The notes below the pieces were generated by a model. That model saw only the letters and a list, made by a program, of their open reading frames with translations. It had not been told where the DNA came from and made no database searches. From Verrucomicrobiota bacterium (GTDB taxonomy: Bacteria; Verrucomicrobiota; Verrucomicrobiia; Opitutales; Opitutaceae), in the NCBI GenBank assembly GCA_016235555.1, contig JACRKC010000016.1, positions 62,001 through 126,000 of the forward strand: a stretch of DNA of 64,000 bases. The letters run 5' to 3'. A program made the position numbers and the translations under genes. This document shows, piece by piece, positions 4,301-63,933 of the stretch; within the stretch, counting starts at the first letter, position 1; each line of letters opens with the position of its first letter.

Positions 4301-7165
4301 ATGAAACCCCGTTTGTGGTGTGGCCTCGCTCTGGTGTTTTCCTCGATTGCGTTCGCCGGTGATCTCGATTGGCCGGCGATTTCGGCGCAGACGAAACCGT
4401 GGTCGCGGTGGTGGTGGCTCGGTAATATCGGGACCAAGCAGGATTTCACGACCGAGATGGAAAAATACGCGCAGGCCGGGCTCGGTGGCCTCGAAATCAC
4501 ACCCATCTATGGCGTGCGCGGGCAGGAGGGGCAGTTCCGGGACTATCTTTCGCCGCAGTGGATGGAATTGCTCGACCACGTGCTCGACGAGGGGCAACGG
4601 CTCGGGCTCGGTATCGATATGTCGACGGGCACGGGCTGGCCGTTTGGCGGGCCGTGGGTGTCGCCGGACAGCGCTGCGCGTCACGTGGTGGGAGAGACCT
4701 ACACCGTGAAAGCAGGGGAGCGGCTGGCCGAGCCAGTGGTGGCGACGGACACACCAATTGTCCGCTTGGCGGGGCCGCGACGTGTGACCATCGGGGAACT
4801 CACGGACCCGGTCACGTCGAACAAGAATCTACAGGACCTCGCGCTCGATCAGGTGCGGTTTCCGCGGAAGGCGTCGTTGCAGGCGCTCGTCGCCGTGTCG
4901 AGCAATGGCGAGAAAATCGATCTGACCGCGCGAGTGGATGCGGCGGGGAAACTCGACTGGGTGGCGCCGGCAGTAGGGCGGGTCTCTGCCCCGCCCTCGA
5001 GCGCCGCGGGGCAAACAAAGGGCGGGTCGGAGACCCGCCCTACCTCGGACTGGACCCTCTATGCGGTGTTCCTTGGCTGGCACGGCAAGCAGGTCGAGCG
5101 GGCCGGGCCGGGCGGCGAGGGCGATGTGATCGACCATTTCAACGCGGGGGCGCTCGCGAAATACCTGAAACGCTTCGACGACGCCTATGCGGGTCATCGG
5201 GCGAACCGCCTGCGCGCCTATTTCAACGATTCCTACGAAGTCGACGATGCGAACGGCGAGTCGAACTGGACGGCGCGATTCTTCGAGGAATTCAAGCGGC
5301 GTCGCGGCTACGATCTGCGCGACGAGTTGCCGGCGTTTTTCGGCCAGGACACGCCCGAGAAAAACGCCCGCGTGATGTGCGACCACCGTGAGACGATTTC
5401 GGATTTGCTGCTCGAAGAATTCACGGTGCCGTGGGCGAAGTGGGCAAAATCGCACGGCGCGATCATCCGCAACCAGGCGCACGGCTCGCCGGCGAACATC
5501 ATCGATCTCTACGCGGCGAGCGACATTCCCGAGACAGAGGGAAACAACATCATCGGGATGAAGCTGGCCTCGTCGGCGGCCCACGTGACCGGCAAGCAAC
5601 TCACGTCGGCGGAGACGGCGACGTGGCTCGATGAGCACTGGGTGTCGACGCTCGGCGACATCAAGCGCCGCGTCGACCAGATGTTCCTCGGCGGCGTGAA
5701 CCACAACTGTTACCACGGCACGGTGTTCTCGCCGCCGGGCGAGCCGTGGCCGGGTCATCATTTTTACGCGGCGGTCGAGCTCGACCCGAGCAACTCGATC
5801 TGGGCCGACGCGGACGTGCTCAACGCCTACGTGGCGCGCGTGCAGTCGTTCCTGCAAACCGGCCAACCGGCGAACGACATCCTGCTCTACCACCCGATCC
5901 ACGATGCGTGGATGCAGCGGGGCGATGGCGCGATGCCGCACTTCGGTGGCGGGGCGCGCGCGGGCGGGCAGGGCATCGCGGGCGAGCTGCACGCGCGCGG
6001 CTGCACGTTCGATTTTGTGACGGACCGGCTGCTGGCCGGCGTGGAGTTCCGCGATGGTGCGCTGCGCACGGGTGGCGTGAGCTACAAGGTCGTGGTCGTG
6101 CCCGAGGTGAAATTCATGCCGGCGGCGACGCTGGAAAGGCTGGCAGCGCTGGCGCGCGCAGGGGCGACGGTGATCTTTCACAAGAGGCCGCCCGGGGATG
6201 TCCCTGGACTCGGCGACTTGGAACGGCAACGGGCGCGCCTTCGGAGCGTGGGCACGGAGCGATTCAAAATCGGGCCGGACATCGAAGCACTGCTCGCCCA
6301 GGCGGGCGTGCGGCGCGAGACGCTCGTGGATCGCGGGCTGCAATTCGAGCGCCGCGCGCATGAAAAGGGGCACGTATATTTTCTGCGCAACGGCGGCGAG
6401 AAGCCGATCGAGGGCTGGGTGCCGCTCGCGACGACGACGAAGTTGAGCGTGGTGTTCGAGCCAATGTCCGGGCGGCGCGGCGTGGGGGCGGTTCAGACGG
6501 GCGCGATGGGCCAAGTCGAGACATGGATGCAACTCGCGCCGAGCGAGACCGTAATCGTAAAGACCTTCACGGATCGCGACAGCGGTTCGCCGGGGTTCGA
6601 GTTCTTCGCGAAGGCTCGGCCAGTGCCGGTGGCTGGCAGTTGGACGGTGCAATTCGTTCGCGGCGGACCGACGCTGCCCGGGGCAGTGACGACCTCCGAG
6701 CTTCGCTCCTGGGTGGACTTCGGCGGCGATCCGGTGAAGGCGTTCGCTGGCACGGCCGTCTATACGACCAAGTGGAAGGTGGCTCGCGGAACGGGCGACC
6801 TCATGCTCGATCTCGGCCGGGTAAGCGACAGCGCGCGAGTAAAGGTGAATGGCCGCGAAGTCGGCGCGCTCATCGAGCCACCGTGGCGGGTCGTCATTCG
6901 GCGCGATGCGCTGCACGACGGAGAGAACACGCTGGAAATCGCGGTGACGAACGTCGCCGCCAACCGCATCGCCGACCTCGACCGGCGCGACCCGAGTTGG
7001 AAGAAATTCTACAACACGAACTATCCCGCGCGCATCGGGGCGAATCGCGGCGCGGATGGAAATTTCAGCGCGGCGAAGTGGACGCCAAGGCCGGCGGGGT
7101 TGCTCGGGCCGGTGACGATCGCGCCGATTGCGACGGTGGGGGTTGGCAAGCTGGATTTAGAGTGA
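4301..7165 (+). CDS. GH106-type alpha-L-rhamnosidase, secreted
   Basis: A 954-residue protein with a clear signal peptide (MKPRLWCGLALVFSSIAFAG). The start of the mature protein (PWSRWWWLGNIGTKQDFTTE, GLGGLEITPIYGV, STGTGWPFGGPWV) is diagnostic of glycosyl hydrolase family 106. A C-terminal beta domain with DLGRVSDSARVKVNGREVG (about 845-863) resembles the sugar-binding domain of such enzymes. It removes rhamnose from RG-I or other rhamnosides. I placed the start at ATG 4301. The open frame 82 codons further up reads through a palindromic repeat and lacks signal-peptide character. Residues 225-248 (RVSAPPSSAAGQTKGG..ETRPT) are encoded by a palindromic repeat at 4973-5043. Confidence 0.9.
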   Translation: MKPRLWCGLALVFSSIAFAGDLDWPAISAQTKPWSRWWWLGNIGTKQDFTTEMEKYAQAGLGGLEITPIYGVRGQEGQFRDYLSPQWMELLDHVLDEGQRLGLGIDMSTGTGWPFGGPWVSPDSAARHVVGETYTVKAGERLAEPVVATDTPIVRLAGPRRVTIGELTDPVTSNKNLQDLALDQVRFPRKASLQALVAVSSNGEKIDLTARVDAAGKLDWVAPAVGRVSAPPSSAAGQTKGGSETRPTSDWTLYAVFLGWHGKQVERAGPGGEGDVIDHFNAGALAKYLKRFDDAYAGHRANRLRAYFNDSYEVDDANGESNWTARFFEEFKRRRGYDLRDELPAFFGQDTPEKNARVMCDHRETISDLLLEEFTVPWAKWAKSHGAIIRNQAHGSPANIIDLYAASDIPETEGNNIIGMKLASSAAHVTGKQLTSAETATWLDEHWVSTLGDIKRRVDQMFLGGVNHNCYHGTVFSPPGEPWPGHHFYAAVELDPSNSIWADADVLNAYVARVQSFLQTGQPANDILLYHPIHDAWMQRGDGAMPHFGGGARAGGQGIAGELHARGCTFDFVTDRLLAGVEFRDGALRTGGVSYKVVVVPEVKFMPAATLERLAALARAGATVIFHKRPPGDVPGLGDLERQRARLRSVGTERFKIGPDIEALLAQAGVRRETLVDRGLQFERRAHEKGHVYFLRNGGEKPIEGWVPLATTTKLSVVFEPMSGRRGVGAVQTGAMGQVETWMQLAPSETVIVKTFTDRDSGSPGFEFFAKARPVPVAGSWTVQFVRGGPTLPGAVTTSELRSWVDFGGDPVKAFAGTAVYTTKWKVARGTGDLMLDLGRVSDSARVKVNGREVGALIEPPWRVVIRRDALHDGENTLEIAVTNVAANRIADLDRRDPSWKKFYNTNYPARIGANRGADGNFSAAKWTPRPAGLLGPVTIAPIATVGVGKLDLE
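4973..5043. repeat. In-frame palindromic repeat inside the GH106 gene, GTAGGGCGGGTC family
   Basis: Begins GTAGGGCGGGTC, ends GACCCGCCCTAC, with one hairpin at each end. It is closely related to intergenic copies at 25266 and 50320. It adds about 24 residues of Ser/Gly/Pro-rich sequence between conserved stretches without breaking the frame. Confidence 0.9.
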
Positions 7166-7256
7166 CGGCTGCGATCGTTTTCGCGCCGGGATTTTGAACG
7201 CGCAGTCGAACGCCACCTCTCGGGTTGCGTCGGACCGGCCGACGTCGCCGTTGCGG

Positions 7257-7991
7257 TCAGGGCTCAGGTCGGGGGGGCACGAAATTGAACGACAACTGGC
7301 CGACAGGCGAGCGCCCAAAGAGACGCAGCAGCCGGCCGGTCGCGGTCTCGAAGGTGAAGCGCATGTCGATGTAGCCGCCCTTCGCGCCGAGCGGCAACGT
7401 ATCGTAGCGGTAGCGAAACGTCGTCTGGTCGCCATCGTGGCTGCGCTCGGTCGGATGGCCGAGGAGCGATTCGAGCGAGGCGGTGGTGACGCGGGCGACG
7501 AGTTGCGCGCGCTCCGCGACGGTGAAGCTGACCTCGGCTTCGCGTTTCGCGCGGTCGACGCTGGCGGAGCCGAGGCCGCGGAGCAGCCCGATGAAAAACG
7601 ATTTCGGCACGAAGACGAAGTAGCGTTCGTTCATGAACACCTGCGTGAAGCGTCCGTCGGCGAACATCAGCTCGAGTTCGAGGTCGCGGGGCTCGGGATC
7701 GCGCACGCCGGCGGGCAGCTGTTTCTGCCAGCGCACGCGCCATTGCTCGGCGACGCCGAGTGTGCGCTTCGTCTCGGGCGTGACGCCCATCCACGTGAAG
7801 TCGTCGCTGAGCAGCACGGGATCGCGGCAGAGGAGGCGGAGGCCGTCGGTTTGTTGCAGCGTGAAGTGCCGGTCGAAGTCGGCGAGCTGGCGCTTCATGG
7901 CCAGCAGGCGGAGATAGACGCAGCCGGCGAGGGCGAGCGTAGCGGCGCAGAGCGCGGCGGCGGCGAGCAGGCGCGGCCGGCGCGGTTTCAT
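7257..7991 (-). CDS. Lipoprotein of unknown function
   Basis: A 244-residue protein with a type II signal peptide: basic n-region MKPRRPR, hydrophobic core, lipobox LAGC (Cys about residue 24). The rest looks like one globular alpha/beta domain ending in Pro-rich VPPRPEP. It contains a repeated alternation of charged strands (FTVAERAQLVARV, DQTTFRYRYDTLP). No named family recognised. Its start is 4 bp from the stop of the next minus-strand gene (7996-8682), so the two are probably co-transcribed with rsmA, which lies upstream of both. Confidence 0.75.
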   Translation of the reverse strand: MKPRRPRLLAAAALCAATLALAGCVYLRLLAMKRQLADFDRHFTLQQTDGLRLLCRDPVLLSDDFTWMGVTPETKRTLGVAEQWRVRWQKQLPAGVRDPEPRDLELELMFADGRFTQVFMNERYFVFVPKSFFIGLLRGLGSASVDRAKREAEVSFTVAERAQLVARVTTASLESLLGHPTERSHDGDQTTFRYRYDTLPLGAKGGYIDMRFTFETATGRLLRLFGRSPVGQLSFNFVPPRPEP

Positions 7992-7995
7992 CCGG

Positions 7996-8682
7996 TTACT
8001 TTTTCTCCGCGGCCGCGGGTTTGGCGGCCGGCGGCTTGGCGAACTCGATTTTCGCGACCACGTCCAGCAGGCGCTGGCGGAGGAGGTCGTCCTCCTCGGT
8101 GGTGGTCTTCTTGTAGGCCCGGCCCTCGATGACTTTTTCGGAGAGCTCGACGCTGATGACGAAGATGTGGCCGTTCCGGACGAACAGGAGGTTGCCGCGC
8201 TTGGCGACGGGCACCGGACCGCCGGCGATCTGCGGGACCTTGTCCATGAACATCGAGCCGCCGGGCAGCAGGATGTAGGTGAGCAGGGAACCGTCGAGCG
8301 TGCCGGGGACGAACTTGGCGCTCTCGACCTGCACCCCCTCGAACGTCTGCTTGAAGTCGCCCAGCACGAAGTTGCTGAAGAAATAGATCAGGTAGTCCTT
8401 CACGCCGCGGGTGGAGAGTTCCCAGCGTTGCGTGGCGTCCTGCGGAAAGGCGGCGATGCTGATGTGGACGTTGAAATCGTCCTGGAAGGTGACGACGTTG
8501 GGCGTGTCGGTGATGTTGCCGCCGAGCTCCGGGAGGACGGGGATGGTGACCTTGTAGGCACCGGTGGGGGAGGCGTATTTCTTGCCCTCGACTTTGCCCT
8601 CGAGCGCCGGTGGCGGAAGCTCCTGGGCGAGTGCGGTCAGCGAGGTGGCAAGAAGGGCGAGAGCAAACAGGCGACGAGACAT
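7996..8682 (-). CDS. Secreted protein of unknown function
   Basis: A 228-residue protein starting at ATG 8682 with signal peptide MSRRLFALALLATSLTALAQ. The open frame extends much further upstream but overlaps rsmA and has no similarity there. The mature part (YASPTGAYKVTIPVLPELGG, VSVELSEKVIEGRAYKKTT) resembles periplasmic proteins that carry a mostly-beta domain. The C-terminus is a low-complexity Ala/Pro/Lys tail. It sits between rsmA and the lipoprotein gene on the same strand, suggesting one transcription unit. No biochemical role can be read from the sequence. Confidence 0.75.
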   Translation of the reverse strand: MSRRLFALALLATSLTALAQELPPPALEGKVEGKKYASPTGAYKVTIPVLPELGGNITDTPNVVTFQDDFNVHISIAAFPQDATQRWELSTRGVKDYLIYFFSNFVLGDFKQTFEGVQVESAKFVPGTLDGSLLTYILLPGGSMFMDKVPQIAGGPVPVAKRGNLLFVRNGHIFVISVELSEKVIEGRAYKKTTTEEDDLLRQRLLDVVAKIEFAKPPAAKPAAAEKK

Positions 8683-8714
8683 GGCGGTCGAATCTGTGAA
8701 GTGTGGACGGTCTT

Positions 8715-9599
8715 TCAAGCTGAGTTTGGCGGGAGCAGGGCGAAGCGCCGCCACCAGTCGGTCGGGAGGGCTTCGGGCCTGGTTTGCTCTGAGAGGCCGT
8801 CGGCCCGGAGAAGTTCCCGCCAGCTGTCCCCGGCTACGCGGTGGCGCAGGAGCGAGCCGATCTGCTTGCGGCGCTGTTGGAAACAGGAGCGCACGAGGGC
8901 CTTGAATCCAGCGGCGAAAACGAACGGCCGCGGTTTTCGCACAAGATGGAGCAGGTGCGACTCGACATCCGGCCGGGGATAGAAACACCCGGCGCCGACC
9001 GTGTGGCCGGGGGCCACGTCGTAGGCCGACTGGAGGAAGATGGAGATCGCGCCAAACGACTTTGTGCCGGGCTGCGCGGTGTAGCGTTGGGCGGCTTCGA
9101 GCTGGAGCATCAGCACCATGCGCTGCGGCAGCGGACCGCTCAGCACGGCGTCGAGCCACGGCGTGGCGATGGCGTAGGGGAGGTTGGCGACGATTTTGAA
9201 ATCAGCGGGAGCGCGATCGCCCCCGGTCGCGGCGGAGGGCGAAGACGAGACCGGGGGCGGTCGCGTTCCCAGGCCCGCCAGCGGTTGGTCGACCGCATCG
9301 CCTTCGAGCAGGTGAAAGGTCTGCGGAAAACGCGGTGCGAGCGTCTCGGTGAGGTGGGCGTGCAGCGTGCGGTCTTTCTCGACGGCCCAGACTTCGGCGC
9401 CGGCTTCGAGCAGGGCGGTCGTGAGCGTGCCGAGCCCGGGGCCGATTTCGATCACAACGTCGCCGGCGCTGACCCCGGCGAGTTCGAGGGATTTGTGGAC
9501 GATGTTGCCGTCGACGAGAAAATTCTGGCCGAGGAAACGCTTCGGCGAGTGGCCGAGCCGGGCGAGTTGCTCGCGCGTGCTGGTGGGGGTGAGCGGCAT
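8715..9599 (-). CDS. rsmA: 16S rRNA dimethyladenosine transferase RsmA (KsgA)
   Basis: A 294-residue protein. It dimethylates two adjacent adenosines in the 3' terminal hairpin of 16S rRNA during small-subunit maturation. Family motifs are in order: LGQNFLVDGNIV (about 23-34), SAM-binding VIEIGPGLGTLTTALL (about 48-63), and catalytic NLPYAIATPWL (about 138-148), where the usual NLPYNIS is NLPYAIA. A Ser/Pro/Ala-rich stretch (GTRPPPVSSSPSAATGG, about 110-126) just before the catalytic motif is not a family feature and coincides with an imperfect inverted repeat at 9208-9270. Confidence 0.95.
   Translation of the reverse strand: MPLTPTSTREQLARLGHSPKRFLGQNFLVDGNIVHKSLELAGVSAGDVVIEIGPGLGTLTTALLEAGAEVWAVEKDRTLHAHLTETLAPRFPQTFHLLEGDAVDQPLAGLGTRPPPVSSSPSAATGGDRAPADFKIVANLPYAIATPWLDAVLSGPLPQRMVLMLQLEAAQRYTAQPGTKSFGAISIFLQSAYDVAPGHTVGAGCFYPRPDVESHLLHLVRKPRPFVFAAGFKALVRSCFQQRRKQIGSLLRHRVAGDSWRELLRADGLSEQTRPEALPTDWWRRFALLPPNSA
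9208..9270. repeat. In-frame imperfect inverted repeat inside rsmA
   Basis: Left arm GGGAGCGCGATCGCCCCCGG, right arm GACCGGGGGCGGTCGCGT then TCCC. The arms are imperfect complements with about 20 bases between them. The translated segment is a Pro/Ser/Ala-rich insert relative to ordinary RsmA proteins, so this is probably another repeat tolerated in frame. Confidence 0.65.
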
Positions 9600-9643
9600 G
9601 GGCTAGAAATTGACATGCAGCCCACAGGTCGCGGCCGCCGGGA

Positions 9644-9713
9644 GCAGGGCAGGTCTGTGGCCTGCCCTGCGGATATTCACCGCGTGAATGGGCAGGTCAC
9701 GGGCCGGCCCTAC
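9644..9713. repeat. REP/BIME-like palindrome, GTAGGGCGGGTC family (variant)
   Basis: Hairpins GGGCAGG..CCTGCCC and GGGCAGGTC..GGCCGGCCC facing each other, ending CCCTAC. It lies between rsmA and the DUF5069 gene. The left end reads GCAG instead of GTAG. Confidence 0.75.
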
Positions 9714-9757
9714 CTCGACGCCACGCCCAGATCGTCGCTGGAAGTTCATGACGGACT

Positions 9758-10177
9758 CTAAGGCGCGCGGCCTTCGTCGACCTCGTAGTAATCGAAGAAC
9801 GTGACGAGGTCCGTGCGATGCGCGAGGCCGCTCTCGGCTTTGTTTTTCTCGAGGTTGACGGTGGCCTCGTCGCGCCAGCCGCGCTTGCGACAGAACGTGC
9901 TGAAAATCGCGATGTCCTCGTCGCGCAGCGGCCGGCCGTGCTGGCGCACCCACGCGTAAATCTCGTCGTCCGTGCCGCCCTGCAGCGTGCGGGCCTTGAG
10001 CGCGGCGTAGTCGATCCCGAAGAAGCGACAGTAGCGTCCGTCGAACCCCTGGCCGATCATCTCGTGGAAATCCTCGCGCAATTCGCCGCGCGCGTGCTTG
10101 CGGATTTTGTCCAGCATGCGGGCGAAGTAGGGCACGCCTTGGGTGAGGAGGAGGGCGCTGATGGGCGTTTGTTTCAT
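9758..10177 (-). CDS. DUF5069 domain-containing protein
   Basis: A 139-residue soluble protein. The order YFARMLDKIRKHARGEL, FHEMIGQGFDGRYCRFFGI and DDEIYAWVRQHG matches the DUF5069 family, which is frequent in Verrucomicrobia and has no assigned biochemistry. There is no signal peptide or membrane segment. It starts 7 bp after trpC ends on the same strand, so it is probably translated from the trpC transcript. This proximity says little about function. Confidence 0.8.
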   Translation of the reverse strand: MKQTPISALLLTQGVPYFARMLDKIRKHARGELREDFHEMIGQGFDGRYCRFFGIDYAALKARTLQGGTDDEIYAWVRQHGRPLRDEDIAIFSTFCRKRGWRDEATVNLEKNKAESGLAHRTDLVTFFDYYEVDEGRAP

Positions 10178-43200: not shown

Positions 43201-46200
43201 ATCGAGGGCGGTGCGGAGGAAAGGGGAGGTGGCGGTGTCGGTGGAGGCGACGCTTTCGGGCGGGCCTTCGGCGACGATGCGGCCGCCGTTGGCGCCGGCG
43301 TCGGGGCCGATTTCGATGAGCCAGTCGGCGGACTTGAGCACGTCGAGGTTGTGCTCGATCACGACGACGCTGTGGCCGCGGTCGACAAGCGCTTGGAGCA
43401 CGCCGAGGAGGCGTTTCACGTCGTGGCGGTGCAGGCCGGTGGTCGGTTCGTCGAGCACAAGCAGGGCGCCGGATGGATCGGTAGGTCGGGGTTTATCCCC
43501 GACATCTGTCGGGCGTAAAGCCCGACCTACATCGTCGGTCGCGAATGCACCGAGATACCGCACGAGTTTCAACCGCTGCGATTCGCCGCCGCTGAGGGTG
43601 TTGAGCGGCTGGCCGAGGGTGAGATAACCCATACCAACGGAATCGAGGGTCGAGAGGCGTTGCTGGATTTCCGGGTGCTCGGCGAAGAGCGACAGTGCGT
43701 CGCTCACGCTGGTCGCGAGCAGATCGGCAACGGAGCGATTCTGCCAGTGGATCGCGAGGACTTCGGGTTTGAAGCGGCGCGTCTCGCAGACGGGGCACGG
43801 CACGAAGACATCGGAGAGAAACTGCATCTCGACCCGCTCGTAGCCGAGGCCCTGGCAGTGGTCGCACCGGCCGTCGCCGCTGTTGAATGAGAAGGACGAC
43901 GGGCTGAAGCCGGCCTCCTGCGCGGCGGGCGTGGCGGCGAAGAGTTCGCGGATGAGTTCCCACGCTTCGGTGTAGAGTGCGGGGTTGGAGCGCGGCGTGC
44001 GGGAGAGCGGCGACTGGTCGACGAGGACGATTTCGGAGAACACGCCCGCAGCGGGCGTGAGTTGAGAGCTGGGAGTTGAGAGTTGAGAGTCGGAGAAGGT
44101 GATCGCCTCGATCGCGGCGGGGTCCTCCGTGAGCTGGTGGCGTTGAGTGAGGAGACCCTGGTAGATGACGTTGTCGAGGAGGGTGGATTTGCCGGAGCCG
44201 GAGACGCCGCTGAGGCAGACGAAGCGCTGGAGCGGGAGGCGGAAGGAGAGGTTTTGCAGATTGTGTTTCGAGGCGTTCCTGAATTCGAGCCAATGGACGG
44301 AAGCGCTGCTGGATTCTTCGCTGCGCTCAGAATGACAAACCACCGGGCGGCGTTGTGAGGGCGTCTCGATCGATTCGCGGCCGGAGAAGTAACGACCGGT
44401 GATGCTGGCGGGCGAGGCGAGCATCGCGGAAACGGGGCCTTGGAAAACGATGTGGCCGCCGCGGCCGCCGGGCTCGGGGCCGACTTCGATGACGTGATCG
44501 GCCGCGCGGATCATCGCTTCGTCGTGCTCGACGACGACGACGGTGTTGCCCGCGTCCGTGAGCGAGCGGATGATCGCGATGAGGCGGTCGATGTCGCGCG
44601 GGTGAAGGCCGACGCTCGGCTCGTCGAGGACGAAGAGCGTGTCGACGAGCGAGGTGCCGAGGCAGGAGGTGAGGTTGACGCGTTCGACCTCGCCGCCGGA
44701 GAGCGTTTTCGACGGGCGGTCGAGCGTGAGGTAACCGAGACCGACCTGCTCGAGGTAACGAAGGCGGGTGACGATCGATTCGTAGGCGAGGGTCGCGCTG
44801 CGGTCCGCGGTGGCGCGCGGAAAAGTGTCATTTAATAGATGACACTTTTCCAGGCGAGCGAGGAGGTCGGAGACGGGGAGTTGATAGAGTTGGGGGAGAG
44901 TCTGCCCCTGCCAATGCCAGCAGAGCGCTTCGGGTTGAAGGCGCTGGCCGGCGCAATCGGGGCAGGGATTGTAGGCGCGGTAGCGCGAGAGGAACACGCG
45001 CACGTGCATCTTGTAGGTGTTCTTCTCAAGCCAGCGGAAGAAGCCCTTCACACCATACCAATACTGCGGCCACGTCTTGCCGTTGGCCTCGCCGTAGCCG
45101 GGCTCGCCGTCGATGATGAACGCCCGCTGCTCAGGCGAGAGCGCGGCGAACGGAACGTCGGTCGGAATTTTCTTCTTTTTGGCGAAGACGCGCAGGTCGT
45201 TGACCGACTCCTGGTAGATTTCGCCCTCCCAGCACTTCAGGGCCCCGTCGTCGATCGAGAGCGACTGGTCCGGGACGGCGAGACGGTAATCGATGTCGAT
45301 GACGCGGCCGAAGCCGCGGCACTTCGGGCAGGCGCCGAGCGGAGAGTTGAAGGAAAAGAGCGCGGGCGACGCGGCGCGGAAGCTGCGGCCGGTCTTCGGC
45401 GAATGGAGACCGCGGGAGAAGTGGCCGAGCTCTTCGAATTTTTGATTTTCGATTTCCGATTTTTGATTTCCAAACAAACGCACCTCGCCCTGGCCGAAGT
45501 GGAGGGCGGTTTCGACGGCTTCGAGGAAACGGGATTTTTGCGACGGTTCGAGCGTGACGCGGTCTTGGGCGACGAAGAGGTGGTCGGTTTTGGCGAGTGG
45601 TTTCGGGGTGGCGGCGAGTTCGTCGAGGCGATGGAGGGAGAGAGTGGAATCGGCTCGCTGGCGCTCGCCGCTACTAACCAGCACGCGCACGTAGGACTGG
45701 CCCTGGAGGTTTTTGATGATCTCGGGCCAGGTGAGATTGGCGGGTTTGGTGACTTTGAACGCGACGATGGCCTGCGCGCCGGGGTGGGCGGCGGCGGATT
45801 TTTCCCAGATGGTCTGCGGGTTGTCGTCTTCGACTTTTTCGCCGGTGGCGGGATCGAAGCACTCGGCGACGTGGCTGAACCAGACTTTGAAGAAATCGGT
45901 CAGCTCCGTCATCGTGCCAACGGTGGAGCGCGAGGTCTTGACCGTGTTGGTCTGCGCGATGGCGATCGACGGGCGGATGTTTTCGATCGAGTCGACCTTG
46001 GGTTTATCGAGGAGGTCGAGGAACTGGCGCGTGTAGGCGGAGAAGGTTTCGACGTAGCGGCGCTGGCCCTCGGCGTGAAGCGTGTCGAAGACGAGCGAGG
46101 ACTTGCCGGCGCCGCTGAGCCCGGTGACGACGACGTAGCGGCCGAGGGGCAGGTCGAGGTCGAAGCCCTTGAGGTTGTTCTGGCGGACGCCGCGCAGGCG

Positions 46201-55934: not shown

Positions 55935-58469
<2,535 letters not shown>

Positions 58470-58493
58470 CAAAACGACGACCACCCGTCGCCC

Positions 58494-58538
58494 AAAGAAA
58501 CCCCGCCCCCCGAGATCAAGGGGAGCGGGGTTTTCTTT
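58494..58538 (+). terminator. Intrinsic terminator of the mcsA-mcsB-clpC operon
   Basis: AAAGAAACCCCGC, CCCC, loop, GGGG, GCGGGGTTTTCTTT: a long stem ending in a T-rich run, 25 bp after clpC. Confidence 0.9.
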
Positions 58539-58552
58539 GAGGGGAAAAGGAT

Positions 58553-58648
58553 TGTCATTCTGAGCGAAGCGAAGAATCCAATTGGAACCACGATGCCCCG
58601 ACCTGCTGCGAGTTTCCTGCTGGATTTTTCGCATCGCTCAGAATGACG
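58553..58648. repeat. Inverted repeat of TGTCATTCTGAGCG type; contains a start codon
   Basis: Left arm TGTCATTCTGAGCGAAGCGA then AGAATCC; right arm GGATTTTTCGCATCGCTCAG then AATGAC. The ATG in the right arm (58643) is the start codon of the transglutaminase-like gene. A half copy is in uvrA at 44311. Confidence 0.92.
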
Positions 58649-60433
58649 CGCTGGCGGACCATCGGCCCGATTCTTGCGCTCGGCGCCCTGCGCCTCGCTG
58701 CGCAGATCCCCGACGCCGAGCTGACACAGGCGCCCACGCCGGCCCGGCTCGCCGCTCTTCGCACGGCTGCCCAGCGCGACGGTTGGGGGCCGCACGTGGC
58801 GCCGCTGCGGGCGGCGGCGTTGCGAGCCTACCAGTTGGACAAGCTCGCGGCGATGGAGGCGTGGCTGAACGTCTACCGCTGGACCGTTTGGTGGGCCCGG
58901 CCGGAAAACGAATTCACCGGGCCGTGGATCCAGGCGGTCAATGCGGCCAAAGTCGGCCACGCCAACATGCCGCGCACCTACCCGGCGCGCGCGGCGCCGC
59001 TCGGGCAGGCGCTGGCCCCGGAGTTACAGGCCTGGCTGCTGGGCAACACCGCGTTTTCCGCCGAGTTTTTCGCGGTGCTCGAACCGGTCGACTACCTGCC
59101 CAACGTTTTTCAGATCCTCAACGAACTGCACCACCGCGATGCCGCGCGCTTCAAGAAATACGCCAGCCTCGCGCTCGCGCTGGCCGTGGTCTACGACGTG
59201 CCACCGCCGCCGGACTGGCCGCATGCGCAGGTCACGGCCGCCGCCCTTCCGCGAAAATTCCCGCCGGCGCACGAGGCTTTCGCCTGGTGGACCCATCAGG
59301 ACGAAATCGGCCGCACCTACCACCGGCTGGCGCGCCTCGGGGCGGCCGAACTGAAATACGTGGTCGATGCGGCCGCCCCGTTCCCGGAATTGGAGTGGGG
59401 CGCCAGGATCTCGGACTACCCGCTCAGCCAGCTCGCGCGAGCCTACACGATGGTGCGCTACCGCAACGACCGCCTCGCCAACAACAATCCCGTCTGGACC
59501 GGCAAAACCTACCGGCTCCCCGACATCCTCGGCGCGGGTGGCATCTGTGTGGACCAGTCGTATTTCGCGACCGAGATCGGCAAGGCGCGGGGCGTGCCCA
59601 CGCTGTTTTTTCACGGTGCCGGCAAGGATGGCCGCCATGCCTGGTTCGGTTTTCTCGACAGCAACGGCAAATGGCAGCTGGATGCGGGGCGCTATGCCGA
59701 GCAGCGCTTCGTGACCGGTTTTGCCCGCGATCCGCAGACGTGGGGCGAACTCACCGATCACGAGCTGCAGTTTCTGTCGGAGCGATTCCGCCAGCTGCCA
59801 TCCTTCCAGCAGTCGCGGGTGCACGCCGCCTTCGCGGCTGATTTCCTCGCCGCCGGCGACTTCGACGCCGCGGCGCGGGCGGCGCGCAAGGCCGTCAACT
59901 ATGAGCGACGCAACCAGGATGGCTGGGAGGTCCTCGTCACCGCCGCGCAGAAGTCCGGTCGCGACGCCAAGACGGTGGAAAACGTGCTGCGCGAGGCAGC
60001 GCTGGCGTTTCACACGCGCTACCCCGATCTCGAAGCAGCTTACGTCAACCGCGTGGCGGCGAGTCTGCGGGCGCGCGGCCAGACCAGCGAGGCGGAGGCC
60101 GAGGTGCGCAACATCGCCAACAAACACAAGGGCGGCCGCTCCGACCTCAGCGTCGCGCAGGCGCGCGATATTTTGCAACGGGCGGTGGCGACCCAGCCTC
60201 TGCCGGAGCAAATCCGTTCCTTCAACACGGTCCTGGACAACTACGGACGCGGCGCCGGGATCGGTTTTTTCGACCAGATCGTCGTCGGCTTTGTGGAGCA
60301 TCTCGTGAATCTGCAGCAGCGGGCCGAGGCGAAGCGGGCGTTGGAGCGGGCCCGGCAGACGTTGAAGGTGGAGCCCAACAGCCAGCTCGAGGGCGAGTTC
60401 GCCCGGGTGGCGAAACTGCTGTCCGCCCAATGA
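58643..60433 (+). CDS. Secreted transglutaminase-like protein with TPR-type C-terminus
   Basis: A 596-residue protein. The signal peptide MTRWRTIGPILALGALRLAAQ is complete at ATG 58643, so the start codon is inside a repeat. A Cys-His-Asp triad of the transglutaminase core is visible: Cys302 in GGICVDQSYFAT, His332 in GRHAWFGF, Asp347 in WQLDAGRYAE (spacing 30 and 15, typical of the fold). Residues about 390-596 are helical TPR-like repeats (FLAAGDFDAAARAARKAVNY). It may be a peptidase or protein cross-linking enzyme. Its stop overlaps the next start (ATGA), so the two are translationally coupled. Confidence 0.78.
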   Translation: MTRWRTIGPILALGALRLAAQIPDAELTQAPTPARLAALRTAAQRDGWGPHVAPLRAAALRAYQLDKLAAMEAWLNVYRWTVWWARPENEFTGPWIQAVNAAKVGHANMPRTYPARAAPLGQALAPELQAWLLGNTAFSAEFFAVLEPVDYLPNVFQILNELHHRDAARFKKYASLALALAVVYDVPPPPDWPHAQVTAAALPRKFPPAHEAFAWWTHQDEIGRTYHRLARLGAAELKYVVDAAAPFPELEWGARISDYPLSQLARAYTMVRYRNDRLANNNPVWTGKTYRLPDILGAGGICVDQSYFATEIGKARGVPTLFFHGAGKDGRHAWFGFLDSNGKWQLDAGRYAEQRFVTGFARDPQTWGELTDHELQFLSERFRQLPSFQQSRVHAAFAADFLAAGDFDAAARAARKAVNYERRNQDGWEVLVTAAQKSGRDAKTVENVLREAALAFHTRYPDLEAAYVNRVAASLRARGQTSEAEAEVRNIANKHKGGRSDLSVAQARDILQRAVATQPLPEQIRSFNTVLDNYGRGAGIGFFDQIVVGFVEHLVNLQQRAEAKRALERARQTLKVEPNSQLEGEFARVAKLLSAQ

Positions 60434-62529
60434 AGCCGTGGGCGCGTCCGTCCGCGGCGACCGCCGCACTCGGTGCGCTCGCCTTCGCCGCCTATGCCAA
60501 CAGCTTCGGCGCGCTGCTGCTGCTCGATAACGCCGCGATCATCGGCGCAGACGTCCGGCTGCGGGCCACGGACTGGAGCGACTTCGTCCAGATCTTCACG
60601 GAGGGATATTGGTGGCCGCAGTTTCTGACCAATCTCTACCGGCCGCTCACGACGTTCAGCTATTGGTGCAACTATACACTGCTCGGCCACGGCGACACCC
60701 CGGCGGGCTATCATCTCGTCAATCTTCTGCTGCATCTCGTCAATGTCCTGCTGCTGCGCCGGCTCGCGTCGCGAATCGGGGCGGCGGACGGAGTCGCCTG
60801 GCTGGCCGCCGCGATCTTTGCCGTGCACCCGCTCGGGGTGGAAGTCGTGACCAACATCGTCGGACGGGCGGATTTGCTTGCGACGCTCGGGGTGCTCGGC
60901 GGATCGCTCGCGTGGCTGCGGGCCGATGACGAGGCGGGCGGGCACCGATCATGGCGCTGGCGGGCGGCGGCCGGGGCGATCGCGCTGGCGGCCGTTTTTG
61001 CGAAGGAGAACGGCATCATGGTTGTGGCGGCGCTCGCTTTGCTGGAGATCCATCGAAGCGGCTGGCGCAGTGGCATCCGAACCTCGGCCACGACCGTGCT
61101 GCCGTGGATGGCGCCGGCGCTCATTGCGATCGCCGTGGTGCGGTTCGTCATGCAGCGGCATGTCGCGGACCTTCCGCCGGCCTTCGTCAACAACCCGATT
61201 GCCTACCTCGGCTACTGGCCGGGGCTGATGACGGCGGGCAACGTCGCCGTCCGTCTGCTCGCGCTCGTGGTCTGGCCGGCGGGGCTCAGTTGCGATTACT
61301 CCTACCCGCAAATCCCGTTATTCGGCGAGAGCGCCGACGGCACCTGGCAGGGCTGGGGCGCGTTGCTGGTGCTCGGGCTGGTGGCGTGGACGGCGGGGCA
61401 AATCCGGCGGACGCGGCCCTTGGTGGCGGCCGGGTTGGTATGGGCGGCCGTGATGTATCTGCCGACGTCGAACTTCCTGGTGCGCATCGGCAGCATCATG
61501 GCGGAGCGGTTCATGTATCTGCCGCTGGCCGGCCTGGCGCTGGCGCTGGCGGCGGCGCTGCACGGATGGGGCCGCCCGCTGAACCGGCGCGTGACGGTCG
61601 CGCTGGCGGCGGTGATCCTCGCGGCGTTCACGGCGCGCACCCTGGTGCGAAACGCCGATTGGTGCGATGAAGTCCGCTTCTGGCGATCGGCGGTGGCCGC
61701 TGCGCCCCGCAGCTTCAATGTCCACAAGGGTCTCGCCAGTGCGCTGTGTGCCGACGGGCGCAGCGAGGCGGGGCTGGATGCCGCCATTGCGATCGTGGAG
61801 CGCGCCCTGCCGTTGCTCGAGGAGCCGCCGCTGCCGCTGGAACGCCGCGACAATTCGCTGTGGGGTGATCTCGGCCAATACTATCGTTCGAAGGGGGAGT
61901 TCGTGCTGGCGCGCGGACCGCGCGACGAGGCGGTGGCGTGGTTCGAGAAGTCGCTGGTGTTCCTCGATCGCGCGCACGCGGTTGACCGCTGGGTGAACGC
62001 CGAGTCGCGCCGCCGGCAGCTCGCCCGCGGGAAAAGTGACGGCGAGGTGAGGGAAAACGGATTCATCCCGGTGCATACGCAGCGTGCGGCAACGCTGATC
62101 CGGCTCGGCCGCCTGGCGGAAGCCCTGGAAACCATCCGGACGTTGCAGCGGTTCGCGCCGCTCTGCGCCGACGGTTTCCTCCTGCTGGCGCAGATCGATC
62201 GGTTGAATGGCGACTGGGAGATCGCGGCGGTGCGTTACGTCGAAGTGCTGATCCTCGACAACAAGAACGAAATGGCGTGGCGCGGCTTCAAGGAGGTCTA
62301 CGAGCGCCTCGGCATTGCGCCCCTGCCGGTGCAGGCGGTCGATGGCCGGCGGGCGTTTGTCGACTCGTCACCGCGGTTGCGGGTGCAAATCAACACGGCC
62401 ATGCGCGACATCGTCGCCCTGTTGCGTGGCGCCAAACTGCACGACGAGGCGGACGACTGGATCAGGCGAGGGATGCGGTATTATGGCTGCCCGCCGGAGA
62501 TTTTCGATGAAGCCGGCCGCGGGAGATGA
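60430..62529 (+). CDS. TMTC-like multi-pass membrane protein with TPR region
   Basis: A 699-residue protein. The N-terminal two-thirds has about ten hydrophobic segments and the motif FAVHPLGVEVVTNIVGRADLLATLG (split, about 135-159), which is the signature of TMTC/GT-C O-mannosyltransferase-like proteins, with earlier YRPLTTFSYW (about 76). Then a soluble TPR-like domain (about 430-650). In animals TMTC proteins add mannose to cadherins; in bacteria the acceptor is unknown. Coupled to the transglutaminase-like gene by a 4-base ATGA overlap. Confidence 0.8.
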   Translation: MKPWARPSAATAALGALAFAAYANSFGALLLLDNAAIIGADVRLRATDWSDFVQIFTEGYWWPQFLTNLYRPLTTFSYWCNYTLLGHGDTPAGYHLVNLLLHLVNVLLLRRLASRIGAADGVAWLAAAIFAVHPLGVEVVTNIVGRADLLATLGVLGGSLAWLRADDEAGGHRSWRWRAAAGAIALAAVFAKENGIMVVAALALLEIHRSGWRSGIRTSATTVLPWMAPALIAIAVVRFVMQRHVADLPPAFVNNPIAYLGYWPGLMTAGNVAVRLLALVVWPAGLSCDYSYPQIPLFGESADGTWQGWGALLVLGLVAWTAGQIRRTRPLVAAGLVWAAVMYLPTSNFLVRIGSIMAERFMYLPLAGLALALAAALHGWGRPLNRRVTVALAAVILAAFTARTLVRNADWCDEVRFWRSAVAAAPRSFNVHKGLASALCADGRSEAGLDAAIAIVERALPLLEEPPLPLERRDNSLWGDLGQYYRSKGEFVLARGPRDEAVAWFEKSLVFLDRAHAVDRWVNAESRRRQLARGKSDGEVRENGFIPVHTQRAATLIRLGRLAEALETIRTLQRFAPLCADGFLLLAQIDRLNGDWEIAAVRYVEVLILDNKNEMAWRGFKEVYERLGIAPLPVQAVDGRRAFVDSSPRLRVQINTAMRDIVALLRGAKLHDEADDWIRRGMRYYGCPPEIFDEAGRGR

Positions 62530-62604
62530 AGCCGCCGTTCGCCTCGATGCGGCGGCAAGGAGGCCGCGGGTCGAAGGTGGCGGCGACCATCCTCCCCCGG
62601 AGCG

Positions 62605-63933
62605 TCAATTACCCCGGGGAGTGACGTTGGTGCGGCCGGGGCTCGCGGCGAAGACAAAGGCCGCGGGTTCGCCGGGGTGCGCGGGATCGAAGCCGGGAAA
62701 ATCATCGACGAGATGCTGCGCGAGAGCGGGCGTCGTGGCGCGCAGGCCGGCGGCGACGGCCCGGGCGAGTTGGTAGGCGCCGTAGTTGTTGTGATGGGTG
62801 ATGTCGCGTTCGCTGGTGAAGGCGCGCACGGATTTCTCCGGGCCGAGCGCCTCGTAGAACACGCTGCTGATCGCGGCGAGGTCGATGAAGGCGACGTTTT
62901 CCTCTTTTGCCACGGCGGCGACGGCGGCGGGGTAGTCGCCGTGGGAATTGCGGATTTTGCCGTCGGGGCCGAACTGGCGGCGCTGCATCGGCGACACGAG
63001 GATCGGCGTGGCGCCGCGGCGGCGGGCTTCGGCGATGAAGACTCGCAGGTAGGCGCGGTAGGTGGTCGCGGCTTCGACATAGGTTTGCGGCCAGTTTTGT
63101 TTTTCGTCGTTGTGACCGAATTGGATGATCAGGAAATCGCCGCGTTTCAGCTGGCTGAGGATTTTGTCGAGGCGCAGCTCGGTGATGAACGATTTCAGCG
63201 TCTCGCCCGATTCCGCGTGATTGGCGACGGCGATGGTGGGCTTGAACCAACGCGGGAGCATCTGGCCCCAACTCGCGCCGGGCTCGCGCGGCTGGTCGGT
63301 GACGGTGGAATCGCCGGCGAGAAACACAGTCGGCAGATCGGGCGCAGGGATGATCTCGAGGGTGCGGACGGCGGGGCGGGGGCCGTTGAATTCGAGCGTG
63401 AGCTTGTCGTCCCAGTGATAGACGAGGCCGGTGGCCAGGCTGTTCTCGCGGTTGTTGAGCTCGACGTGATCGTTGCCGGGGGCGTTGAGCGGCGGGGGCG
63501 GGACTTGGGCGTTGCGGGTGTTGACGATGAATTCGAAGCGCGGGCCGCGGGCACTTTCGATCATGAGTCGGCGCGATTCTGATTTGATCGTGAGCGGCGC
63601 TTCGTTGGGCGGGGTGGTGACGACGACGCGGTAGGTGCCCTCGGGGAGGGCCGCGGAGAAGAGAAACGGTTTGTCGCTCGCGATGGCATCGGCGCCAGCG
63701 GTGAGCGGCGCGCCAGGCTCGAAGCCGAAGCCGCGGCTGGACGAAAACGCGGCGTCGGCGGGGACGGCCGTGAAGCCGGCGGGGGCAGGGGCGGCGCCGA
63801 AGAAGAAGCGGAGCGCGGCGGAGGAAGCCGCGGTAGACGCGCCGAGCGGAATCGTGGCGAGAAAGGCGAGTGCCAGCACCACGGCCAAGCACGAGGCGGG
63901 ACGCCTCGTCCACGACTCGATCGGCGAATTCAT
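62605..63933 (-). CDS. Rhamnogalacturonan acetylesterase (SGNH, CE12-like)
   Basis: A 442-residue protein. Signal sequence plus an N-terminal beta-sandwich (about 40-190), then a SGNH hydrolase: nucleophile Ser209 in FLAGDSTVTDQ, block III FGHNDEKQ (Asn), and the Asp377/His380 pair in RDITHHNNYGAYQLA. It deacetylates RG-I so that lyases can cut. The N-terminus runs MNSPIESWTRRPASCLAVVL, where the WTRRPASC part is a GTGGACGAGG repeat. Start: ATG 63933. It overlaps the end of the upstream gene. Confidence 0.9.
   Translation of the reverse strand: MNSPIESWTRRPASCLAVVLALAFLATIPLGASTAASSAALRFFFGAAPAPAGFTAVPADAAFSSSRGFGFEPGAPLTAGADAIASDKPFLFSAALPEGTYRVVVTTPPNEAPLTIKSESRRLMIESARGPRFEFIVNTRNAQVPPPPLNAPGNDHVELNNRENSLATGLVYHWDDKLTLEFNGPRPAVRTLEIIPAPDLPTVFLAGDSTVTDQPREPGASWGQMLPRWFKPTIAVANHAESGETLKSFITELRLDKILSQLKRGDFLIIQFGHNDEKQNWPQTYVEAATTYRAYLRVFIAEARRRGATPILVSPMQRRQFGPDGKIRNSHGDYPAAVAAVAKEENVAFIDLAAISSVFYEALGPEKSVRAFTSERDITHHNNYGAYQLARAVAAGLRATTPALAQHLVDDFPGFDPAHPGEPAAFVFAASPGRTNVTPRGN
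63890..63913 (-). repeat. In-frame GTGGACGAGGCGTCCC hairpin in the acetylesterase signal region
   Basis: CGTGGACGAGGCGTCCCGCC then TCGTG on the minus strand, the same hairpin as at 33057 and 35185. It encodes WTRRPASC, giving the positive n-region of the signal peptide. Confidence 0.85.

Follow-up and report, generated by a model that had tools for sequence, protein, structure and literature searches.

Two genes that lie head to tail and share four nucleotides raise the question of whether they also share a function. Such a pair is found near the end of the stretch of DNA analysed here, a window of 64,000 nucleotides from a member of the Opitutaceae (Verrucomicrobiota bacterium, GenBank assembly GCA_016235555.1, contig JACRKC010000016.1, positions 62,001 to 126,000 of the forward strand). 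The first gene, gene A (58643..60433, plus strand), encodes P0001, a protein of 596 amino acids with a helical N-terminal arm, a core at about residues 247-362, and a C-terminal arm (residues 386-595) resembling tetratricopeptide repeats (TPR). The second, gene B (60430..62529, plus strand), encodes P0002, which is 699 amino acids long and has, judged by hydropathy, a multi-span N-terminal part and, after it, a putative TPR-like C-terminal part. In the list of open reading frames (ORFs) both frames are present at these coordinates, and the stop of gene A and the start of gene B overlap as ATGA at 60430..60433 on the plus strand, as a preliminary description of this DNA had reported. That description went on to propose that a membrane glycosyltransferase-like protein and a thiol enzyme of transglutaminase type act together in modifying the cell envelope; both of its family assignments stood, and the joint envelope-modification system did not. 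Gene A and gene B are, in our assessment, probably envelope-type genes independent of each other that came to lie head to tail through a rearrangement.

The strongest argument for this reading comes from the junction itself. The closest named relative, L092 (70% identity in gene A), runs collinear with the window from 49363 through the end of gene A. Sixteen ORFs, including an antisense frame, were called in it, and the first seven, ending with gene A, have matches in the window. The nine past gene A, which include LysR-, leuC-, leuD- and exbB-type genes typed from sequence, match nothing at E <= 1e-10, neither in the window nor in the 27 kb that remain before the contig ends. Synteny with L092 ends exactly where gene B starts, at the stop codon of gene A, and a break at that point argues that the adjacency of the two genes is a by-product of rearrangement.

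Conservation of the gene neighbourhood had been set beforehand as the check on the proposed pairing, and the adjacency turned out not to be conserved. A scan of named genomes for gene A retained the best 80 of 207 encoding stretches (80 named loci, 65 of them with 2.5 kb or more of downstream sequence), and at E <= 1e-5 gene B was near none of them; nor was it near any of the 23 gene-A loci from relatives of the window's genome, many of which are the same genomes as among the 80. At E <= 0.01 a single one of the 80 was added, L099, in which a frame-broken TMTC-like stretch (E 0.007) lies on the opposite strand. Approached from the other gene, a gene-B match at E <= 1e-30 was found in 18 of 252 family genomes, the window's own included, and in one further genome of the same order, and gene A was near none of the 19 gene-B loci from the 18 other genomes (17 of the family and one of the same order), with several contigs ending close to gene B. 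In five of those 18 genomes gene A is absent, and in 13 it lies elsewhere. The genome of the window itself has one gene-A match and 17 gene-B matches (about 16 loci), and it is because of this imbalance, the absence of gene B from the surroundings of the 80 and 23 gene-A loci, and the synteny break in L092 that we infer independence, with no functional link between the two.

Taken by itself, gene A represents a family that is widespread in the phylum. The titles of the 80 named loci are those of Opitutaceae, Opitutae and other Verrucomicrobia, with one merely called "bacterium"; of 56 other genomes close to that of the window, 23 have a relative (the one in G004 being weak and partial), and matches, some of them weak or partial, were obtained in 70 of 288 genomes sampled across Verrucomicrobiota, its own included. 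No Pfam or NCBIfam domain was significant in P0001, and its weak TPR-type matches are below the Pfam cut-offs. The residues that the preliminary description had named as a triad are as stated there: Cys302, the predicted catalytic nucleophile (codon 59546..59548), His332, the predicted catalytic histidine (59636..59638), and Asp347, the predicted third member (59681..59683), all on the plus strand and each supported by a check of residue identity, the alignment and the model. In an alignment of 56 rows, the window plus 55 named loci out of the 80 (L125 was left out for a stop, and 24 loci were unselected), C302 is present in 55 rows, H332 in all 56 and D347 in 54, with Asn in the other two, and GGI-C-x-D-Q and GRHAW blocks flank the conserved Cys and His. 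The triad is strongly conserved and, judged from this alignment, is more than a chance arrangement of residues. Departures from it are scattered: in L170 Cys is replaced by Glu and Asp by Asn, Asn also takes the place of Asp in L134, L088 (a paralogue in G051) has Pro for Cys and Tyr for His, L080, L081 and L089 have Asn in place of D347, and the frame of L069 stops ahead of the triad, a stop shared by L125, which to judge from its length and position is the same contig. L088 and L170 are possible non-catalytic relatives of gene A. Gene A was also considered as one of the Transglut_core proteins of its own genome and rejected as such, as PF01841 matches four other places in that genome and not gene A.

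The full-length AlphaFold model of P0001, made with the 56-row alignment, had a predicted local distance difference test score (pLDDT) of 89.9 and a predicted template-modelling score (pTM) of 0.85. In it C302 opens a helix (302-315), H332 stands directly before a strand (333-338) and D347 is inside another (344-348), and model and conservation together thus place the predicted catalytic Cys where a helix begins, with His and Asp on subsequent strands; an overall papain/transglutaminase fold is seen as well, in the predicted model alone. Helices occupy most of residues 24-183 and 372-595, and the helical hairpins at 386-595, together with a match of the tail to a designed TPR protein in a profile search (best E 3.7e-13), bear out the TPR-like tail of the preliminary description. 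Because the helical arms fill the match list of the full-length model, for which Foldseek and VIA listed TPR and other helical-repeat proteins, the core was folded separately (residues 148-385, pLDDT 91.8). Foldseek ranks 1-12 for the core, all of which we take to be papain/transglutaminase-fold enzymes, comprised 3isr, TgpA, TglA, a putative protease, PeiP, PNGases and an arylamine N-acetyltransferase, with a best E of 4.2e-3. The top row of VIA-align was transglutaminase 2 (Z 8.1 over 148 residues, 3.2 Å), tied with later rows of Z 7.5 and lower that were mostly transglutaminases. Among 20 family members, nine matched Transglut_core at E up to 10 (best E 7.2e-4), and a rescan of eight members found PF01841 in four, all under the gathering score (best 20.3 bits versus 23).

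Several results count against this assignment: P0001 itself did not match Transglut_core (PF01841) in Pfam and does not reach its gathering score, no Foldseek E-value for the core was <= 0.001, and a best Z of 7 to 8 in VIA is typical for models without a clear match. When P0001 and P0002 were compared by sequence with the PDB, the matches were TPR proteins and weak noise. The fold lines, weak as they are, agree with the triad and with its placement, and because of that agreement the assignment of gene A to a predicted transglutaminase/papain-like core between helical, TPR-like arms is supported.

Among known proteins, the LapG-type periplasmic transglutaminase-like proteases gave a weak Foldseek match to the core (4fgp, E 1.6); they share its predicted fold class, and their domain architecture differs from that of gene A. 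Closer in the predicted core fold, and in the order and placement of Cys, His and Asp, are TgpA of Pseudomonas aeruginosa and 3isr of Cytophaga hutchinsonii, and TgpA is extracytoplasmic, which is also the likely location of the gene A product. For TgpA, a membrane protein, transglutaminase activity of the periplasmic domain was shown in vitro, and a role in the cell wall was suggested by its authors (PMC3507681); a classification of the transglutaminase-like superfamily is given in PMC10318531. Compared with TgpA, gene A has helical arms on both sides of its core, is not recognized by PF01841 and contains no stretch of 19 residues above the hydropathy threshold given below.

That last feature bears on export. 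By eye, residues 1-21 of P0001 resemble a short signal sequence, a feature that is more obvious in several relatives; no 19-residue stretch of P0001 attains a Kyte-Doolittle mean of 1.5, and residues 1-19 are modelled with a pLDDT <50. Overall the beginning of the protein suggests that it is probably exported. The start of gene A coincides with a REPIN-like element (58556..58645, no strand assigned), which is made up of the 23-mer CATTCTGAGCGAAGCGAAGAATC and a second copy in inverse orientation, the two starting 67 nucleotides apart, and the last three bases of which are the gene A ATG. Since the ATG is inside this element, the start of gene A may differ from that of its relatives. The 23-mer occurs in the window also at 44312-44334, and half-copies at <= 2 mismatches number 103 in the genome of the window and none in a reversed control; with one free position and no mismatch it was found in four of 34 genomes searched, its own included, and in two named relatives, L113 and L141, the gap between clpC and gene A carries one half-copy. 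O. terrae is rich in GTAG-type repeats, as described in PMC3733652, and the 23-mer of the window differs from these in lacking GTAG.

If gene A is an enzyme, His332 and Asp347 would activate Cys302, which would then attack an envelope substrate at a carboxamide or amide bond to form a thioester, from which the acyl group would pass to an amine, giving a cross-link, or to water, giving deamidation or hydrolysis, and the helical arms that flank the core may hold the substrate. Gene B, for its part, would use a polyprenyl-phosphate donor to place a sugar on an exported protein.

The assignment of gene B as a TMTC/GT-C-type protein in the preliminary description was upheld below formal cut-offs. 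P0002 matched PF08409 over residues 255-303 (E 0.0012, 19.2 bits versus a cut-off of 27), short of the gathering score, and NCBIfam NF046093 at E 9.4e-6 (25 bits versus a cut-off of 150). One scan matched PF08409 in all five relatives of gene B that it covered, and all six relatives scanned were under the cut-off; a whole-genome PF08409 scan matched nothing, controls included, and was therefore uninformative. Most of the TMTC motifs are kept. By comparison with motifs M1-M7 of the TMTC1-4 O-mannosyltransferases (PMC7801869), P0002 retains D33 (DD), Y70-R71-P72, R146-x-D148, K192-E193, D289 (DW) and E359-R360-x-x-Y363, which include the first Asp of DD, RxD, KE, the Asp of DW, and ERxxY (M1, M3, M4, M5 and M7). 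The complete DD, SHKSYRP and DW motifs are not found: P0002 has DN for DD, LTNLYRP, with TNL for HKS (M2), and DY for DW. Its only PxxP strings are at 293 and 466, the former right after M5, and there is none further between M5 and M7, where the site of M6 would be expected. Of 17 aligned gene-B relatives, 14 have DN and one each DA, DS and DD, and all 17 have DY, and in the nine paralogues of gene B in its own genome DD is present in all five in which that region was aligned. The C-terminal TPR matches of P0002 are below cut-offs, and those of its relative L241 exceed the TPR_2 and TPR_17 cut-offs. Like TMTC1-4 (GT-C/PMT clan), gene B has a multi-span N-terminal part, followed by a putative TPR-like part, and the motifs support its placement as a putative TMTC-like GT-C membrane protein, with the family call below curated cut-offs.

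Gene B is one of many such genes in its genome, where P0002 had 17 matches at E <= 0.001, including two fragments of a single frame. With about 16 TMTC-like loci, gene B included, in 8.0 Mb (G000), four of these on contig C50, the putative GT-C set of this organism is large. A further observation concerns L244 (G347), where a protein kinase (PF00069, E 6.9e-54) and a TMTC-like part with 41% identity to gene B occur in one frame of 1436 amino acids on the minus strand (5455-9762), along with a weak TPR match and an FGE-sulfatase domain (PF03781, E 1.1e-37); this unusual fusion may hint at the role of the TMTC subgroup to which gene B belongs.

Several observations weigh against the independence of the two genes. 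The ATGA overlap is the sole 4-nucleotide overlap among 29 co-directional neighbour pairs, a figure obtained from a crude ORF set picked by GC content at third codon positions (GC3) and for this window only. GC3 is 0.851 in both genes; equal GC3 and the overlap give no sign of a recent foreign insert, and gene A and gene B may well be co-transcribed today. Gene A is present in 13 of the 18 other genomes with a close gene-B relative and in 17 of 36 same-family relatives (18 with a weak partial match), a co-occurrence that is at most mild. In four genomes (L085, L246, L247 and L249), a gene-B relative of 30-35% identity lies 1.6-5 kb upstream of ilvE, with mcsA and mcsB visible in L085 and L247, and there is thus some attachment of this TMTC subgroup to the ilvE-clpC region that precedes gene A, on the far side of that cluster and with gene A not there. 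The sample, moreover, contained one genome of the window's genus, very close relatives being outside the comparison. From the shared strand, the overlap, the matching GC3 and the 13 of 18 genomes, and from the predicted extracytoplasmic location of both products, one may construct a lineage-specific pair in which gene B would glycosylate exported proteins, gene A would cross-link or trim them, and ATGA would couple their translation. No other example of such a pair was present at the 80 and 23 gene-A loci (E <= 1e-5) or the 19 gene-B loci, and gene B at E <= 1e-30 is in only 18 of the 252 family genomes, its own included. We regard it as quite unlikely.

A partner for gene A might instead be its upstream neighbour clpC (55935..58469, plus strand; named by eye), the last gene of an ilvE-mcsA-mcsB-clpC cluster, and gene A would then be an exported arm of the same stress response that the McsA-McsB-ClpC proteostasis proteins serve. 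This is the neighbour that persists: a same-strand clpC precedes gene A in 63 of the 75 named gene-A loci with enough DNA (five of the 80 were too short), with an estimated gap of <= 573 nucleotides in 59 of the 63, and the linkage holds down to 44% gene-A identity. In most clpC-linked loci whose contig extends so far ilvE-mcsA-mcsB precede clpC, so that the usual order elsewhere is ilvE-mcsA-mcsB-clpC-gene A, often followed by LysR-, leuC-, leuD- and exbB-type genes (by eye). Against a partnership, clpC is missing upstream in 12 of the 75 named loci and in 11 of the 23 from relatives (it precedes gene A in the other 12), and the gap is 56-330 nucleotides in 56 of the 63. Furthermore, ClpC and McsB function in the cytoplasm, whereas the product of gene A is probably exported. 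Around 18 gene-A loci from further afield in the order, class and phylum, none of ilvE, mcsA, mcsB and clpC was near, which makes the clpC linkage a trait of the Opitutaceae and close kin; around 35 gene-A loci without clpC, a search for a common neighbour by ORF clustering gave no cluster in more than four loci besides gene A and antisense frames. Genes of leuC-leuD and exbB-exbD type also persist nearby (by eye), and general synteny may therefore account for the linkage. We favour synteny over function as its explanation, giving function a modest probability, and consider the partnership itself unlikely. It is rather improbable that gene A defines a phylum-wide exported transglutaminase-fold family, with arms on both sides and missed by Pfam, that in the Opitutaceae would act as the envelope arm of McsA-McsB-ClpC quality control, handling damaged or unassembled exported proteins. 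Least probable of all, and very unlikely, is that gene A, though related to the transglutaminase fold, is no enzyme and binds a substrate or glycan: D347 is Asn in a few homologues, and L088, without Cys and His, and L170, without Cys, indicate that the scaffold tolerates loss in places, but Cys in 55 and His in 56 of the 56 aligned rows, within the GGI-C-x-D-Q and GRHAW blocks, speak against it. Two independent genes, brought together by rearrangement, are what the L092 junction and the genome comparisons together point to.

Some further features of the locus may be recorded. A scan of 58400-62700 for promoters and terminators returned one promoter-like site, on the opposite strand, and five terminator-like sites versus 3.4 expected, nothing of which was usable. 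The idea that gene B is a recent foreign arrival was dropped as unsupported, its GC3 being identical to that of gene A. A run of SGNH/esterase-like, DUF1552/DUF1592-like and oligogalacturonide-lyase-like genes on the minus strand (names by eye) converges on gene B, beginning at window position 62605 and extending past the window end (L171 6605-19985). Each of the four ilvE-linked relatives of gene B has a prepilin-like gene in its vicinity and also a divergent membrane-type protein, the latter without a Pfam match in L246 and L085, the two scanned, and L252 has prepilin-like and divergent membrane-type genes without an ilvE match.

Gene A and gene B belong to already known kinds of envelope enzyme, and among the literature matches listed neither this gene pair nor the family of gene A was described, as judged by title and the start of the abstract, which is no proof of absence. 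With gene B near none of the 80 and 23 gene-A loci, and with synteny broken at the junction in L092, the proposed system of glycosylation and cross-linking drops out of the candidates. What remains is a well-conserved family with a predicted transglutaminase fold, under the Pfam cut-off, found across Verrucomicrobiota and persistently located after clpC in the Opitutaceae; if gene A proved to be an active enzyme of the envelope, it would be added to the few characterised extracytoplasmic transglutaminase-like proteins, TgpA among them.

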